Positions 3,712-46,267 of a stretch of 46,267 nt of DNA are shown here, in pieces. The notes under the pieces are model-generated. The model worked only from the letters and a program-made list of their open reading frames with translations. It did no database searches and was not told the origin of the DNA. The translations under genes were made by a program, and so were the position numbers. Source of the DNA: Bacteroidales bacterium (GTDB lineage: Bacteria > Bacteroidota > Bacteroidia > Bacteroidales > GWA2-32-17); assembly GCA_026416095.1 (NCBI GenBank), contig JAOAFV010000033.1, positions 1 to 46,267 on the forward strand. The letters are read 5' to 3'. Position 1 is the first letter of the stretch, and every line of letters starts with the position of its first letter.

Positions 3712-3787
3712 GGTGGATGTAGCTCAGTTTGGTTAGAGCACCAGATTGTGGCTCTGGTGGTCGCCGGTTCGAGTCCGGTCATCCACC
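3712..3787 (+). tRNA. tRNA-His (GTG)
   Basis: A 76-base cloverleaf including the extra 5' G (G-1) diagnostic of histidine tRNA, which faces C73. The acceptor stem pairs GTGGATG with CATCCAC. The anticodon loop TTGTGGC carries GTG, and the T arm has GGTTCGAGTCC. The 3' CCA is not encoded. Confidence 0.95.
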
Positions 3788-3842
3788 CCTGGATAAGTAA
3801 GATTTTATTACATTTTTTATTACAATAAAGGTGGTTGGGATT

Positions 3843-5306
3843 TTAAGGAAGAATATCAATATTAAATGTTTTTGTCGATATTTTAAGAATTGGTGGCAAG
3901 TAAAGTAACTTAAAAGCATTATTTTGCATCAATAATAATGTTTTTTCGATAGTAACTTCGTCGAAATCTTCTTTTAATATTTCTTCTTTGCTTTTTTCGT
4001 TTTCTATTACTTCATGTAATATTTTGTCGAGTATGTCATAAGGTGGTAATGAATCGGAGTCTTTTTGATTTTCTTTTAATTCGGCGCTTGGTTCTTTATT
4101 AATTATGTTAGATGGAATTACTTTCATTTTAGAATTTATATAATTTGCAAGTTCATAAACTTGGGTTTTATAAAGGTCGCCAATAACCGATAAAGCACCA
4201 CTTATGTCACCATAAATTGTACCGTAACCAGTTGCTATTTCACTTTTGTTTGAAGTATTAATAACAGTATAACCAAATTTATTTGAAAACCACATAAGTA
4301 TTATCATTCTGATTCTTGCTTGTAAGTTTTCTTCGCTTGTGTCGAAATTTTCATCTTTAAAGTAAATTGATAATTCATCAAGAAATTTTTTATATATTGT
4401 TGTAATTGGTACAATGTGGTATTTTATACCTATTTTTTTACAAAAATCAATAGCATCTATAATAGATTGATTTGGAGTGAATTGAGAAGGCATAATGATT
4501 CCTAAAATGTTTTCATTGCCTAATGCTTTTACAGTTAACGAAGTAGCAACAGCACTGTCTATTCCTCCTGATATTCCAATTATTGCCCTTTTTAAGCCAT
4601 TTAGTTTGAAATACTCTTTTATTCCATATACTAAGATATCGTGAATTATTGATATATCACTTATATTATCTATATTTATTTCCTTTTGTTTGTAAAAAGA
4701 AAATGAGGGATTTAGAAAAGATTTTCCTATTATGTTACCATTTTCGTAGATTTCTACATTGCCATCAAAAATTTGGGTTTTATGTATACCTAACGGATTA
4801 ACTAAAATAGAGACTAACTTACAATTGTTTGAAATATTTTTGGCAAAGAACGATGATAATTTGCTATTTGTAATGTCAAAGGGTTTATGATTAAATATAA
4901 CTATAACTGATATATGAAATTCTTTACTAATGTCCGATATGTTAATTTTTTGAATAGTATCACTTAATGAAATGAGAAATTTTCCAGAATAATTTTCTGC
5001 AATTACGTATTCGCTTGTTCTTTTTACTTCTTTCAGATTTGTAAGAATTCTACACTTATAATTATTATTTAAACTATCGAAATATGGTGCAGTTGCAATG
5101 TATTCTATATGTGAAATGCAATTTAAAATATTGTTAATGCTGTTTTCAATATAATTGCATTTTTTTAAATATAAATTACTCAATGAATTTTTTAATGTGT
5201 AATAAAAAGGTAAAATTGCAACAGTATCGTAACTTACAAGGTCAACATAATTTTTAAAATTTTCGAAAGAAAATTCAATAGTTTCAAGGTAAAAAGAAAG
5301 TGTCAT
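3843..5306 (-). CDS. nadE: NAD+ synthetase with a degenerate glutaminase domain
   Basis: It makes NAD+ from deamido-NAD+, ATP and a nitrogen donor. The C-terminal half (from about residue 220) is a normal synthetase: the ATP-pyrophosphatase loop SGGIDSA at 246-252, then TSNKSEIATGYGTIYGDISG and KEPSAELKENQKDSDSLPPY. The N-terminal 210 residues align in outline with the nitrilase-type glutaminase domain, but the three catalytic positions look lost. FPEL with the Glu has become ILPF, the Lys segment (KxxLPTYxVFDE) is unrecognisable, and the Cys of CEDIW is replaced in LISLSDTI. The enzyme therefore probably uses free ammonia or another amidotransferase. At about 487 residues it is shorter than the usual 540-plus. 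The ATG at 5306 is chosen because the frame further upstream offers only TTG at 5318. Confidence 0.88.
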   Translation of the reverse strand: MTLSFYLETIEFSFENFKNYVDLVSYDTVAILPFYYTLKNSLSNLYLKKCNYIENSINNILNCISHIEYIATAPYFDSLNNNYKCRILTNLKEVKRTSEYVIAENYSGKFLISLSDTIQKINISDISKEFHISVIVIFNHKPFDITNSKLSSFFAKNISNNCKLVSILVNPLGIHKTQIFDGNVEIYENGNIIGKSFLNPSFSFYKQKEINIDNISDISIIHDILVYGIKEYFKLNGLKRAIIGISGGIDSAVATSLTVKALGNENILGIIMPSQFTPNQSIIDAIDFCKKIGIKYHIVPITTIYKKFLDELSIYFKDENFDTSEENLQARIRMIILMWFSNKFGYTVINTSNKSEIATGYGTIYGDISGALSVIGDLYKTQVYELANYINSKMKVIPSNIINKEPSAELKENQKDSDSLPPYDILDKILHEVIENEKSKEEILKEDFDEVTIEKTLLLMQNNAFKLLYLPPILKISTKTFNIDILP

Positions 5307-42250: not shown

Positions 42251-42832
42251 TTAAATATTAAGTGTTACACCAAATGATGCGTAAGTTACATCGAAACCAA
42301 ATTCGAGAAACATGGCAATTTTTGAAGTAATAAAGTAGTTAGTACCTACAAATATTCCCATAATGGGGAAAGCTTTTGAATTTCTATTTGGTAGTTCGTC
42401 TCCACCTGGACCATTGTAACTTATTGAATATAAATAGTAACCTAATCCAAGCGCAATGCCACCGTAAACGTTCATTTCGGGAATATCTGCTTCTTTTAAG
42501 TTATAATAATAACATCCTCTAAATGCCATTAAAATATGAGTATATGATTCGGAATAGTTGTATTTATGAAAATTTGCATAATAAAAGCTTTTATACCATG
42601 TTTGAAATAAACTTAATTTACCTCCTAATGTTACAACTCCTGGGCCTGCTATTCTATAACCATGATCAATAGATGCTTTTATTGCAGGAGTGCTAGATGA
42701 ATACCATGAAAGCCAATAATGAGCTGGATAGCCAATTCCGATATTTAAAAAATTTTTGCCTATTGTCATTTCTTGACTCTTAGAAAAAGTAAAAAACCAA
42801 CAGAGTGCTATTAAGATAATTAGTTTTTTCAT
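42251..42832 (-). CDS. Hypothetical outer-membrane beta-barrel protein
   Basis: About 193 residues with a signal peptide (MKKLIILIALCWFFTFSKS). The rest consists of aromatic- and Gly-rich strands (NIGIGYPAHYWLSWY, MNVYGGIALGLGYYLYS, GIFVGTNYFITSKIAMFLEF) and ends in VTYASFGVTLNI. These are signs of a small outer-membrane barrel of the outer-membrane-protein-beta-barrel type. Substrate or role is unknown. The ATG at 42832 is preferred to a GTG two codons earlier. It is the first gene of the six-gene run and carries that operon's promoter. Confidence 0.65.
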   Translation of the reverse strand: MKKLIILIALCWFFTFSKSQEMTIGKNFLNIGIGYPAHYWLSWYSSSTPAIKASIDHGYRIAGPGVVTLGGKLSLFQTWYKSFYYANFHKYNYSESYTHILMAFRGCYYYNLKEADIPEMNVYGGIALGLGYYLYSISYNGPGGDELPNRNSKAFPIMGIFVGTNYFITSKIAMFLEFGFDVTYASFGVTLNI

Positions 42833-42848
42833 TTTCACGATTTTTTTG

Positions 42849-42880
42849 CAAAGGTAACATATCTTTTAAGAAATAACAAA
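42849..42880 (-). promoter_or_regulatory. Promoter of the sugar-uptake/murF operon
   Basis: On the minus strand TTTG (42877-42880) is followed after 20 bases by TACCTTTG (42849-42856), matching the Bacteroidota consensus. The predicted start is about 10 bases before the ATG at 42832, giving a short leader. I see no clear LacI-type operator palindrome around it. Confidence 0.65.
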
Positions 42881-42984
42881 AATGAATTTTTTACATTCCA
42901 CATTGAACTTATTAAATAGTTTAAAATTATTATTGAAAGACTAAATTAGCTTAGTAAAAAGATATAATTTATTATTTTATAAGT

Positions 42985-43335
42985 TCATAAATATTTTCTA
43001 AACCTAACGAATTTGAAGATTTTTATTAAATTTCCTTCAACTAATTCGATGGTTCGTTTAGTTGTAGAAGCAATACATGTAATGTTGTTTTGTTTTAATT
43101 TTTGAATCATACAGAAACAAAATGTCATTTCGCCCATAATATGTACTGCATTAGGTTTCATGGCAAGGATTTTATCTAAGTATAGGTTTGTTAATTGATC
43201 AATGTATTGTTCGTCTCCGAATGGATCAACTTCGGGGAATGGCATATCGACAACTTCGCCATAAAAATTAATGGCAGCTTTTTTTTGTTCTTCGCTCCAA
43301 CTCTCGAAGGGGTGGTTTGTTAAATTAATTAACAT
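42985..43335 (-). CDS. Small CRISPR-associated-like Rossmann protein, possible ring nuclease
   Basis: A 116-residue soluble protein at the end of the CARF-effector operon, overlapping the preceding gene by 11 bases. Visible features are MLINLTNHPFESWSEEQ at the start, MPFPEVDPFGDEQYI near 32-46, AVHIMGEMTFCFCMIQ near 63-78, ITCIASTTKRTIEL near 84-97 and a final FVRFRKYL. Alternating strands and helices suggest a small Rossmann-like fold. The start recalls Csx15-type NFSHP proteins, which are predicted cyclic-oligoadenylate ring nucleases, but the similarity is weak and read by eye. Its place beside two CARF nucleases fits a signal-degrading off-switch. This is inference; it could also be an unrelated regulator. 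Confidence 0.55.
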   Translation of the reverse strand: MLINLTNHPFESWSEEQKKAAINFYGEVVDMPFPEVDPFGDEQYIDQLTNLYLDKILAMKPNAVHIMGEMTFCFCMIQKLKQNNITCIASTTKRTIELVEGNLIKIFKFVRFRKYL

Positions 43336-44587
43336 AATTAAGATTTTTTTTGAATTCTATAATAGTTTCTATTAATTTTATTGAATCGGTTGAATTTTCT
43401 CTGAAACCTGCATGCATAAAATCGTTTCGCAAATCAATAATTTTAGAAAGATTTTCGTAGAAATCTCTGTTCTTTTTAATATAATTAATAAGATTTTCTA
43501 CTAACTGTTCATTTTTTTTACATTTTTCGTTCCATTTGTCTTTGTCAATATTTTTTAAAAAAATATTAATAGCCGATGTTGTAAGTTCTCGATTTTCTAA
43601 GTTAAATTCATTAATATTATTATCGACACAAATTTTTGTAATAATGGTTTCAATTAAAAAAGAATACGCTTGTTGATATAATTGATGTTCAATACACCAA
43701 TCTATGATTTTACACATTTCTATTAGCTTTGAATTGTTGGAGATTGTAAATTTTTGTTCGATATGCTCCAGTATAGGCTTTAGTTGAGGCAAAATATAAT
43801 TACTATTCTTTATCTTTTGAATTTTTTGTGAAAGCAACGAAATAGGTTGTTTTTCGTACAAATGTTTTCCACGTGTAGTAGCAATGTTTTCGGCAAACAC
43901 TTTTAATTCTTTTGAAAAATCTCTAATATCTCTAGCAGCTTGGTTATCACCTTTAGTTTCTCTAAGAATAGGGTGTATTTCTTTGTTTGTTAATTCGACA
44001 AGCATTGAAGCATTTCCATATTTAACAAAATTATTAGCTGCTATTGTCCAATCTTGTAATTCGCTAAGTGAAAGCAAATCGATTATTGGAGAAAAATTAT
44101 TATCGTCGCGACCTTCCCAATTCCCATATGTAATGGATTTTATTGAAACGTTTTTTAATACTTTAGCGTAGTTAAGCAATACTATGAGTATCATTGGTAA
44201 AAAACGGAATGAATGAGTGATATCAACATACAATTCGTCGTTGTAGTTTATTTTATTAAAAATTATTTCAAATATTTGCCAGAGCTCATCTTCGTTTTTA
44301 CCGTCTGGAATTGTTGCTTTTTCATATTCTGTATTAATTGACATTTTAGATAACACTGCACTTAACCCTTCGTAGTCTTTTTTTTGAGGCTCATTTTTCC
44401 AGTTTTTAGTTTCAGAATCATTAGTAACGAAAATAATAATACGATCATTTTCAGTAAAATGATTGCAAAGTAGTTTTATTGTCGCTTCTTGAATAAAATG
44501 TGTTTCAACATAATTATCTTTGTTCTTGTAGTAATATTTTGTTTTTGAATAATTTCCTGTACCAAGTATAGAAATAAACTTTTTCAT
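43325..44587 (-). CDS. CARF-HEPN ribonuclease, TM1812/Csx2 family (Csx1/Csm6-like)
   Basis: A 420-residue type III CRISPR accessory effector. The N-terminal CARF domain (about 1-175) begins ISILGTGNYSKTKYYY, has FIQEATIKLL near 31-40, and the DxTHG-family motif VDITHSFRFLPM at 121-132. The C-terminal helical HEPN domain carries RNDFMH at 387-392, the R-x4-H active site of HEPN ribonucleases. In known relatives, cyclic oligoadenylate made by Cas10 binds the CARF domain and switches on RNA cleavage by a HEPN dimer. It begins 13 bases after the Card1-like gene and overlaps the small downstream gene. No Cas10 is in the window, so the activating source is unseen. Confidence 0.85.
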   Translation of the reverse strand: MKKFISILGTGNYSKTKYYYKNKDNYVETHFIQEATIKLLCNHFTENDRIIIFVTNDSETKNWKNEPQKKDYEGLSAVLSKMSINTEYEKATIPDGKNEDELWQIFEIIFNKINYNDELYVDITHSFRFLPMILIVLLNYAKVLKNVSIKSITYGNWEGRDDNNFSPIIDLLSLSELQDWTIAANNFVKYGNASMLVELTNKEIHPILRETKGDNQAARDIRDFSKELKVFAENIATTRGKHLYEKQPISLLSQKIQKIKNSNYILPQLKPILEHIEQKFTISNNSKLIEMCKIIDWCIEHQLYQQAYSFLIETIITKICVDNNINEFNLENRELTTSAINIFLKNIDKDKWNEKCKKNEQLVENLINYIKKNRDFYENLSKIIDLRNDFMHAGFRENSTDSIKLIETIIEFKKNLNYVN

Positions 44588-44600
44588 AGGGAGTTAATTT

Positions 44601-45644
44601 TTATTTTATAAAAGCTTCTAAAAGATCCTTAAAGTTATCGTTAATTATGCAACTTCTATCGAACAATGGATAATGTATGCTTGCAATTTCGCAGCGACGT
44701 TTAAGGTTGTCGATTGCATTTGAAGCTAATGTACTTAAATCGGCAAAAGTAAAAATTGTAGCCCGAGCACTTAAACCAAAACGTTTGTTTATTGACGATA
44801 ATTTATATATGATTTGAGTTAAAGTGGTTGTATTTACTTTTTCTTCACCTAAAGAAAATTTACATTCAATAATAAAAGGACGATTGTTGTATATAAATAT
44901 TACATCAACTTCGTTGTCGTTGTTGTAGTGATCTATGTTTTTTTCTTGTTTAATATCAAAAAGTTTTATTCCTGTATATATTTGATTATTATCTAAGTTT
45001 AGTTGTTTTTTTATTTTATAATAAACAAATTCTTCGAACCATTTAGTATGATATTGTTTATTATTAGGAATAGTGTACTTGAACTTATTTTTAGGGAAAT
45101 TTTTGATATTAAACTGACCAGATATTACATCGTTAAAAATTTCAAAAACTAAATCTTCATCGAAAATTTGTGGTTCTTGTTCGTATCGAATGCCATAGAT
45201 TTGTAAATATTCTTGAACCGATAGTTTGTAGTTAAAATTATGGATGGTAGAAGGTTTTTCATCGAACAATTCATTGTAAACATTACGACCTATTGGAACA
45301 TAAAAGAAACGAGAATTTGGAAATTTGCTAAAAAATCGCCATACAGCAATAGACATCATTTTAGTACCACCGGTAAGATTTACTAAAAAAATGGCATCGT
45401 TAGGTAGGGTTAATTTCGATAATTTGTCGATACTTTGTTTAAGAGCATCGTCGGGAATTAATGTTTTAATGCGATTTGATTTATTAATTTCGGCTGTTTC
45501 GCAAATTATGTTTGTTTTATTTTTTTGCTCCATCTGTTGTGTGCTAATAAAAATAAACTTATCGACCTGTTGTTGAAATTCTTTAATAAACAGATAATTT
45601 GGTACTGGTTGTTCGGAGATTATGGAAATTAGGTAAGTTGTCAT
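44601..45644 (-). CDS. Card1/Can2-like CARF and PD-(D/E)XK nuclease
   Basis: A 347-residue type III CRISPR ancillary nuclease (DUF1887 type). The CARF domain (about 1-145) has the ligand-loop motif VNLTGGTKMMSIAV at 88-101. The C-terminal nuclease domain shows EEFVYYKIKKQL near 204-215, then D247 in NEVDVIF and E260/K262 in FIIECKFS, which is the complete D-(x)n-E-x-K metal site. Known Card1 and Can2 proteins are turned on by cyclic tetra-adenylate and nick single-stranded RNA and DNA or supercoiled DNA. Its ATG overlaps the TGA of the upstream coiled-coil gene as ATGA, indicating translational coupling. Confidence 0.87.
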   Translation of the reverse strand: MTTYLISIISEQPVPNYLFIKEFQQQVDKFIFISTQQMEQKNKTNIICETAEINKSNRIKTLIPDDALKQSIDKLSKLTLPNDAIFLVNLTGGTKMMSIAVWRFFSKFPNSRFFYVPIGRNVYNELFDEKPSTIHNFNYKLSVQEYLQIYGIRYEQEPQIFDEDLVFEIFNDVISGQFNIKNFPKNKFKYTIPNNKQYHTKWFEEFVYYKIKKQLNLDNNQIYTGIKLFDIKQEKNIDHYNNDNEVDVIFIYNNRPFIIECKFSLGEEKVNTTTLTQIIYKLSSINKRFGLSARATIFTFADLSTLASNAIDNLKRRCEIASIHYPLFDRSCIINDNFKDLLEAFIK

Positions 45645-46267
45645 AATTTGATTGTGTTATATAAGAAAACAAAAAGTTGAAAAGCAATTAAAAGAATTAT
45701 TAAAATAAACATTAATTTATTATTTGTTAAGTATTTTGTTTTATATGTTTGAAAGTCATCCATAAGTTTAGCATAGTTTTGTTTTAGATTAGTTAAATTT
45801 GTGTTTATTTGTTCAATATTTTGTGGTAAATTTAAATTATATAATTCATTTAATATTTTTTTCGTTTCAACTTGAGTTTCGTAAAGACTGTTTAGAATTT
45901 TAAGAGTTTCGTTCTTAAGTTGAAGTATGGTTTCTTTATTTTCTTTGATAAAATTATCAATATCATTTTTAGTTTGATTAGTAGTTTGAGTAATTTGATT
46001 TTCAATATTTTTTGATGTTAGTTGTATATTTGATTCAATTTCTTTAAGTTGTTTAATTGTTGACTCAGTAAATTTTTTATAATTATTATTTAAATCTGTA
46101 TTAGTTTGGTTAAAAAAATCATTTACATCACTTTTAATTTCTAAAATCTTTTCTTTTGTAAAATCAATTATATAATTAGATGTTTCTTTGTTAAGTTGTT
46201 TAATTAATTCGTAATTGTTATTTAATTCTTTAATTAAATTCTCAGCACTTTCAACAACAGATTTAAC
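45641..46267 (-). CDS. Coiled-coil protein with C-terminal membrane anchor (5' end outside window)
   Basis: The frame is open from the right edge to TGA at 45641-45643, giving 208 visible residues; the start is missing. The visible part has no Gly, Cys, Trp, His or Arg and one Pro, and is rich in Asn, Lys, Leu, Ile, Thr and Glu in a helical pattern, so a long coiled coil is likely. Codons at about 45659-45715 encode LMFILIILLIAFQLFVFLY, a single membrane helix followed by NTIKL, a tail-anchor arrangement. The stop overlaps the Card1-like start by 4 bases. No family is recognised. It may place the CARF effectors at the membrane or be a membrane-acting effector itself; its N-terminus would decide. 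Confidence 0.8.
   Translation of the reverse strand, partial: VKSVVESAENLIKELNNNYELIKQLNKETSNYIIDFTKEKILEIKSDVNDFFNQTNTDLNNNYKKFTESTIKQLKEIESNIQLTSKNIENQITQTTNQTKNDIDNFIKENKETILQLKNETLKILNSLYETQVETKKILNELYNLNLPQNIEQINTNLTNLKQNYAKLMDDFQTYKTKYLTNNKLMFILIILLIAFQLFVFLYNTIKL

Follow-up and report, generated by a model that had tools for sequence, protein, structure and literature searches.

A Fused NAD Synthetase with a Degenerate Glutaminase Half, Probably Fed by Ammonia and One of Many in the Order Bacteroidales

Introduction

The window analyzed here, a 46,267-nucleotide stretch of a Bacteroidales draft genome (assembly GCA_026416095.1, contig JAOAFV010000033.1), encodes a fused NAD synthetase (NadE) in which the synthetase half is intact and the glutaminase half has lost the Glu, Lys, and Cys of its catalytic triad. 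It is likely that a fused, glutamine-type enzyme has here turned ammonia-dependent with its dead half retained. The initial annotation of this DNA made the right observation but understated it, describing as a single enzyme a case with many counterparts in the order. On the best reading of the sequences it is a NAD synthetase that takes ammonia and carries a pseudo-glutaminase half, of a kind that arose several times in the order, and the searches made of the open-access literature turned up no natural NAD synthetase described as having its glutaminase half inactivated. Two earlier papers take fused NAD synthetases to be glutamine users (PMC3376133; PMC7196632); given that assumption and the census described below, annotating such enzymes in this way is probably wrong in a sizeable part of the order. 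Intact, Cys-dead, eroded, and half-less NadE occur side by side, in family f4 within a single family, and this natural series offers a way to study the change of an amidotransferase from glutamine to ammonia and the reasons for which selection retains an inactive domain.

The nadE Gene and Its Synthetase Half

The gene lies where the initial annotation placed it, as a minus-strand open reading frame of 487 aa at 3843-5306. Its main features outside the glutaminase half are as follows.

3843..5306, minus strand: coding sequence of nadE for 487 aa, running from ATG at 5306 to the stop at 3843, with no other NAD synthetase gene in the genome
3906..4634, minus strand: NAD synthetase domain, intact, PF02540 (residues 225-467, E 1.2e-74)
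4554..4571, minus strand: SGGIDS PP-loop, residues 246-251
3846..3905, minus strand: C-terminal tail, shortened, with the FG.GRR.P loop of intact enzymes lost

The genome (2.46 Mb, 96.9% complete) carries one copy of NadE. A second, intact nadE was not found in it; the other PF02540 matches read were GuaA, two AsnB-like proteins, and one further PP-loop protein. That the synthetase half is intact, as first proposed, is borne out by the PF02540 match and by the retention of its conserved positions. Twenty such positions were checked, and 18 are identical across all 28 triad-less enzymes of the census; at the remaining two, Thr is kept in 24 of the 28 dead enzymes and Ser in 22 (Ser is found in 168 of 177 intact ones). 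Section 15 of PMC3376133 describes an extended C-terminal loop as a mark of glutamine-using NAD synthetases. The FG.GRR.P stretch, which we read as this loop, is gone from the window NadE save for its Pro. The first Arg of the loop is present in 176 of 177 intact enzymes, 16 of 28 dead ones, and none of eight single-domain ones, so that the loop relaxes together with loss of the triad.

Degeneration of the Glutaminase Half

Residues 1-214 match no Pfam family, and the nitrilase family PF00795 has no match anywhere in the window NadE at E<=1. The features of this half are listed below.

4665..5306, minus strand: degenerate nitrilase-like (glutaminase) half, residues 1-214, lacking a PF00795 match and 18-19% identical to same-genus halves
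5223..5225, minus strand: Thr28 codon at the catalytic Glu column, from alignments
5034..5039, minus strand: deletion junction, residues 90/91, with the catalytic Lys and following loop removed, as placed by the 28-row alignment
4962..4964, minus strand: Ser115 codon at the catalytic Cys column, from alignments, with ISLSDTI for TICEDLW

The 28-row alignment comprises the window NadE and 27 full-length relatives of the same order, two truncated ones having been dropped. The Glu-Lys-Cys (E-K-C) triad is present in 26 of the 27 relatives, the exception being L016 (genome G057), with Gly for Cys. The enzymes of three genomes of the same genus (G001, G002, and G003) read FSEL, KALLPTYDVFDE, and TICEDLW and keep all three catalytic residues. 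In the window NadE, Thr28 stands at the Glu column and Ser115 at the Cys column, and the Lys column falls within a deletion of 27 residues that follows residue 90; a larger alignment gave the same assignments. In a further alignment (A1) Tyr100 occupies the Lys column and the loop columns that follow are gaps, so the position of the gap is uncertain, and Lys is absent in both. The corresponding residues of the human and Mycobacterium tuberculosis enzymes are given in PMC6946656 as Cys175/176, Glu45/52, and Lys114/121. The same source describes a YRE loop coupling the two active sites in M. tuberculosis (Tyr127-Glu132, six residues starting six after Lys), and by that spacing the YRE loop of the window NadE lies inside the deletion, that is, it is absent. 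Loss of the triad, the core of the initial annotation, is thus confirmed, as is its placing of LISLSDTI opposite the Cys motif TICEDLW. Its choice of ILPF as counterpart of the Glu motif was mistaken, the stretch opposite FPEL/FSEL being Y26-D-T-V29. To the extent that sequence alone can decide, an active site rebuilt from other residues would be excluded.

The dead half is probably a decayed relative of the intact glutaminase domain, to judge from sequence comparison and a predicted structure. A phmmer search with it against a set of 275 halves found an intact glutaminase half at E 3.3e-6, and a pattern search of genome contigs for relatives of the dead half gave 71 pattern matches and no relative. 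Identity to same-genus halves is 18-19%, and the siblings are 55-63% identical among themselves. With 20 other window genes as reference, the dead half gives log-odds of 0.23 per codon when read in frame and of -0.93 and -1.16 in the other two frames of the same strand. The AlphaFold2 model of the window NadE (pLDDT 79.6, pTM 0.84) shows a nitrilase-like arrangement, and in VIA the predicted model aligned with 3n05_A (Z 34.3, 434 residues, rmsd 2.8) and with the nitrilase 6mg6_B (Z 16.9, 200 residues, rmsd 3.1). The input alignment included 36 intact relatives and residues 10-49 of the model fall under pLDDT 50, so the predicted fold of the dead half leans on those relatives.

Relation to Known Enzymes

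With the fused, type F NAD synthetases (NF010588/PRK13981; structures 5kha, 4f4h, and 3n05) the window NadE has in common ancestry, domain order, the synthetase active site, and the predicted nitrilase fold of the first half. Unlike them it lacks the triad, the loop after Lys, and the extended C-terminal loop, and is about 60 residues shorter; its NF010588 score is 345.7 bits against a cut-off of 479. Among solved enzymes it scores 222.6 bits with 5kha, 214.0 with 4f4h, and 168.6 with 3n05, all fused, and 133.1 with the single-domain 1xng. The ammonia-dependent, single-domain type N enzymes (1xng and others) resemble it in the probable nitrogen donor, in the apparent lack of glutaminase activity, and in having no C-terminal loop, whereas the window NadE keeps a first half of 214 residues. 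Its synthetase half falls among the fused enzymes of the order (on a tree without type N enzymes) and scores higher with 5kha than with 1xng. By its sequence, then, the window NadE is type F in ancestry and fails the features of glutamine dependence (triad, YRE loop, and C-terminal loop); its mode of action is probably that of the type N enzymes, to which it does not belong.

The nearest counterpart known is carbamoyl phosphate synthetase 1 (CPS1), an amidotransferase with an inactive glutaminase-like domain that takes free ammonia. In the human enzyme the catalytic Cys is replaced by Ser and free ammonia is used, as stated in PMC4655335. The glutaminase class and the enzyme are unrelated to NadE, and CPS1 requires N-acetylglutamate as an activator. 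The PDB structures of M. tuberculosis NadE C176A represent a laboratory version of the Cys loss.

Recurrence of Triad Loss across the Order

A search of 393 genomes of the order with an intact sibling enzyme matched 376. A further 130 of the listed matches were fetched, and low-scoring genomes were followed on purpose, so the sample is a selected one, and three of those scored (G007, G008, and G009) came solely from the search for relatives. Dropped before counting were 19 rows (fragments, duplicates, and remnants) and six rows of a long NadE type. The scoring leaves aside weakly matching genomes, whose NadE is presumably of another type, and at least G336 and G396 are among those not followed. 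The 213 scorable genomes, from 74 families, comprise 177 with E-K-C, 28 without the triad (one ambiguous), and eight without a glutaminase half, the 36 non-intact genomes being spread over 17 families. The check proposed at the outset, for the same loss in related genomes, thus returned 27 genomes besides that of the window, one of them ambiguous.

The Cys column of the 28 triad-less enzymes holds Gly in 14, Asp in four, Leu in three, and Ser in two, with single cases of Tyr, Phe, Pro, a gap, and a chance Cys in a row lacking both Glu and Lys. Glu and Lys are both still present in 17 of the 28, and Cys therefore seems the first to go. The triad is absent from all scored members of f81, f113, f106, and f79 (four each) and of f71 (three). 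Seven families (f1, f4, f5, f25, f49, f73, and f115) mix intact and non-intact members; within f73, G184 reads TIGEDLW and its genus mate G341 is intact. The minimum number of changes is nine on a synthetase tree of 127 rows and ten on one of 79 rows, counts that are estimates because good support is limited to 18 of the 124 inner branches of the 127-row tree. On that tree rows named as Bacteroidales stand next to rows of the order scored here, which is taken on this basis to be Bacteroidales. The best reading of these sequences is that triad loss arose several times in the order. Among rows not labelled Bacteroidota, found with patterns from the window protein and so not a random sample, 46 of 47 keep E-K-C.

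Several individual sequences deserve mention. The exception just noted, L049 (Omnitrophota contig JAMWDD010000001.1), is a fused NadE with a four-residue deletion at TICE that could be real or an assembly fault. L094, from genome G227 of f4, is likewise fused; it has FPED, lacks a clear Lys, and reads GVVCGDALL at the Cys site. It is the ambiguous case among the Gly-type triad-less rows, with a Cys one position away, and may be half-way through triad loss or have kept a shifted Cys. Its family also holds an intact genus mate and single-domain relatives. Genome G392 has a second NadE copy, of the long type, with Gly at the Cys column (NLGNEI; L122), its other copy (L116) being E-K-C.

Apparent Loss of the Whole Glutaminase Half

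Single-domain NadE is found in three genomes of f4, three of f9, and one of f35. These enzymes are 50-60% identical to their best fused partners of the same order and 44-51% identical to fused enzymes of other phyla. In a PDB search with two of them (L102 and L107), the lead of a solved fused enzyme over the best single-domain structure was 98 and 90 bits. On a more careful tree, which held no type N enzymes, the f4 and f9 rows (two each) fall inside the clade of the order, adjoining the dead fused enzyme L110. Identity, tree position, and bit scores together make the f4, f9, and f35 enzymes look derived from fused ancestors. If so, they would speak against the scenario set out in 2012 in section 17 of PMC3376133, in which the patchwork of fused and single forms arose without further fusion or fission. 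No remnant of a glutaminase half was found beside the single-domain genes, in a search that detected the eroded half of the window only at E 9e-4 and missed L104 and L110, so a far-decayed remnant could be missed. The eighth single-domain row, G294, has a very long branch, is too divergent to place, and may belong to another class. In genome G339 of f71, a 272-aa open frame (L151/L318) weakly resembles a NadE glutaminase half (E 1e-6); searches of that genome with P0001 and P0004 gave no fused NadE.

Selection on the Dead Half

In all four species of f81 the Cys is replaced by Gly, and six pairs among them give dN/dS values of 0.074-0.157 for the dead half, with all upper bounds <=0.24. Intact halves in genus g2 of f1 give 0.089-0.232 (ten pairs). 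A single pair from f79 gives 0.11 for the dead half, and the one usable pair of three from f113 gives 0.15, with dS saturated. The low values in f81 indicate that strong constraint can act on a half that no longer catalyses. The ratio of dN/dS in the glutaminase half to that in the synthetase half is 3.7 to 5.4 in f81 vs. 1.3 to 3.8 in g2 of f1, which points to some relaxation in f81 too. A structural role for the dead half, as suggested in the initial annotation, gains from this purifying selection for other families that have a dead half. At 18-19% identity to its siblings, the window half looks more like decay than constraint, which counts against the explanation preferred here.

Proposed Mechanism and the Supply of Ammonia

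In the proposed mechanism the synthetase half would adenylate deamido-NAD, and free ammonia, which we infer to be the nitrogen donor used in the cell, would reach the site from solution and attack the adenylated intermediate. Having lost Glu, Lys, Cys, and the loop that follows Lys, the glutaminase half would be unable to hydrolyse glutamine; most of its nitrilase fold has probably been retained. In constrained related lineages it would probably serve as a scaffold, contributing to subunit contacts and stabilizing the synthetase half, and for the window's species either the same role or a late stage of decay may apply. The most likely overall picture is of a dead half that acts as a scaffold in certain lineages and is vestigial in others. 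Fused NAD synthetases accept ammonia in vitro too, according to section 11 of PMC3376133 and to PMC6946656. Direct use of ammonia is the best supported of the possibilities first raised, indirectly, by an intact synthetase site, a sole NadE, and the lack of an extra nitrilase gene.

Glutaminase loss looks specific to NadE, at the level of motifs. In the window genome GuaA keeps GICYG and FHPE and the two AsnB-like proteins keep MCG, so glutamine use probably continues elsewhere. A genome-wide loss of glutaminases was not seen, the motifs being intact in all three proteins looked at.

The ammonium transporter family PF00909 (AmtB) has no match in the window genome and is present in 14 of 14 control genomes; it is also absent from the three same-genus genomes with intact NadE. 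Among 80 genomes it occurs in three of 36 with non-intact NadE and 27 of 44 with intact NadE (Fisher p 7e-7), a comparison for which the 44 intact genomes were chosen by us (sister genomes and others) and genome sizes were transcribed manually. The non-intact group includes G070, a fragment whose Cys column holds Gly, and G294 is omitted. With log genome size included in the model, the association of PF00909 with NadE state has p 0.018. Among genomes of up to 2.9 Mb no clear difference is seen (3/29 non-intact vs. 2/10 intact, p 0.59), and on independent tree pairs the median p is 0.125. Much of the AmtB association tracks genome size. KdpA, taken as a control trait, was over the cut-off in 2/36 vs. 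4/44 and was too rare for use. There is a hint in these data that triad losses occur in cells rarely short of ammonium. We read the absence of AmtB as life with ample ammonium; it could alternatively mean no ammonium uptake.

Alternative Explanations

Among other accounts of the dead half, the one to be taken most seriously, as a real if lesser possibility, is that in the window's species it is a pure vestige nearing loss with no scaffold role. It is far more eroded there (27-residue deletion, 18-19% identity) than the constrained half of f81, and the half is already gone in f4 (genus g6), f9, and f35. Against this, its 214 residues are still open, in frame, and with coding-style codons, and the predicted fold appears ordered from about residue 50 on. 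An unlikely alternative is that the pseudo-glutaminase was taken over as a regulatory or sensing domain, kept by selection in some lineages and discarded in others. It might then still bind a nitrogen metabolite or shape the oligomer, tuning an ammonia-fed NAD synthetase, and would have been retained in f81, and probably in f79 and f113, much as CPS1 retains its inactive domain. How the gene came to its present host is a separate matter. It is rather doubtful that it arrived already dead, by horizontal transfer from an f71-like lineage, instead of decaying within the genus. On the careful tree the window synthetase half joins not its own genus but the dead f71 row L101 (98/91) and then L104 (93/91), a BLAST match with L101 extends back to residue 66, into the dead half, and the siblings' nadE flanks (1.7 to 8.7 kb on each side) hold no relative of any other window ORF of at least 100 aa. 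However, descent with its own genus is not rejected by the AU test (p 0.182), the joined rows are long branches, and neither L101 nor L104 is among the phmmer matches of the dead half alone.

The preferred reading, of direct ammonia use, also competes with the proposal that a separate glutaminase supplies ammonia in trans, which is quite improbable. The search for such an enzyme covered nitrilase-family homologues and found two PF00795 matches in the window genome, a 543-aa protein that from its look is taken for Lnt and a 253-aa protein with Glu, Lys, and Cys motifs of its own. The best NCBIfam model of the latter is PRK10438, presumably YafV-type, at 214 bits under a cut-off of 249, and the C-terminal interface loop of the window NadE is lost. 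Genes of matching lengths (matched by length only) occur among the PF00795 genes of each of the nine other genomes of the family, so the 253-aa protein need not have arisen as compensation. The independent glutaminase that the initial annotation raised as an option therefore finds no support. Least credible of all, to the point of being nearly negligible, is an assembly error or pseudogene. A single draft genome is the source, but all 487 codons are open and most carry a coding-phase signal, which is weak only over the final 26, the protein is the sole NadE of a nearly complete genome, the losses are substitutions and an in-frame deletion, and other genomes of the order have lost the triad as well.

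Other Features of the Window

A promoter scan gave 18 sites vs. 14.3 expected, and a terminator scan gave none. The 3' ends of nadE and of a tRNA-His gene (3713-3789, plus strand) face each other across 53 bases. No CRISPR array was found by repeat search in 42800-46267. That region holds, at 42985-45644 on the minus strand, a run of type III CRISPR accessory genes: a Card1-type CARF nuclease (44601-45644, minus strand; PF23400, E 1.5e-34), a Csx1/Csm6 CARF-HEPN protein (43325-44587, minus strand), and Csx20 (42985-43335, minus strand).
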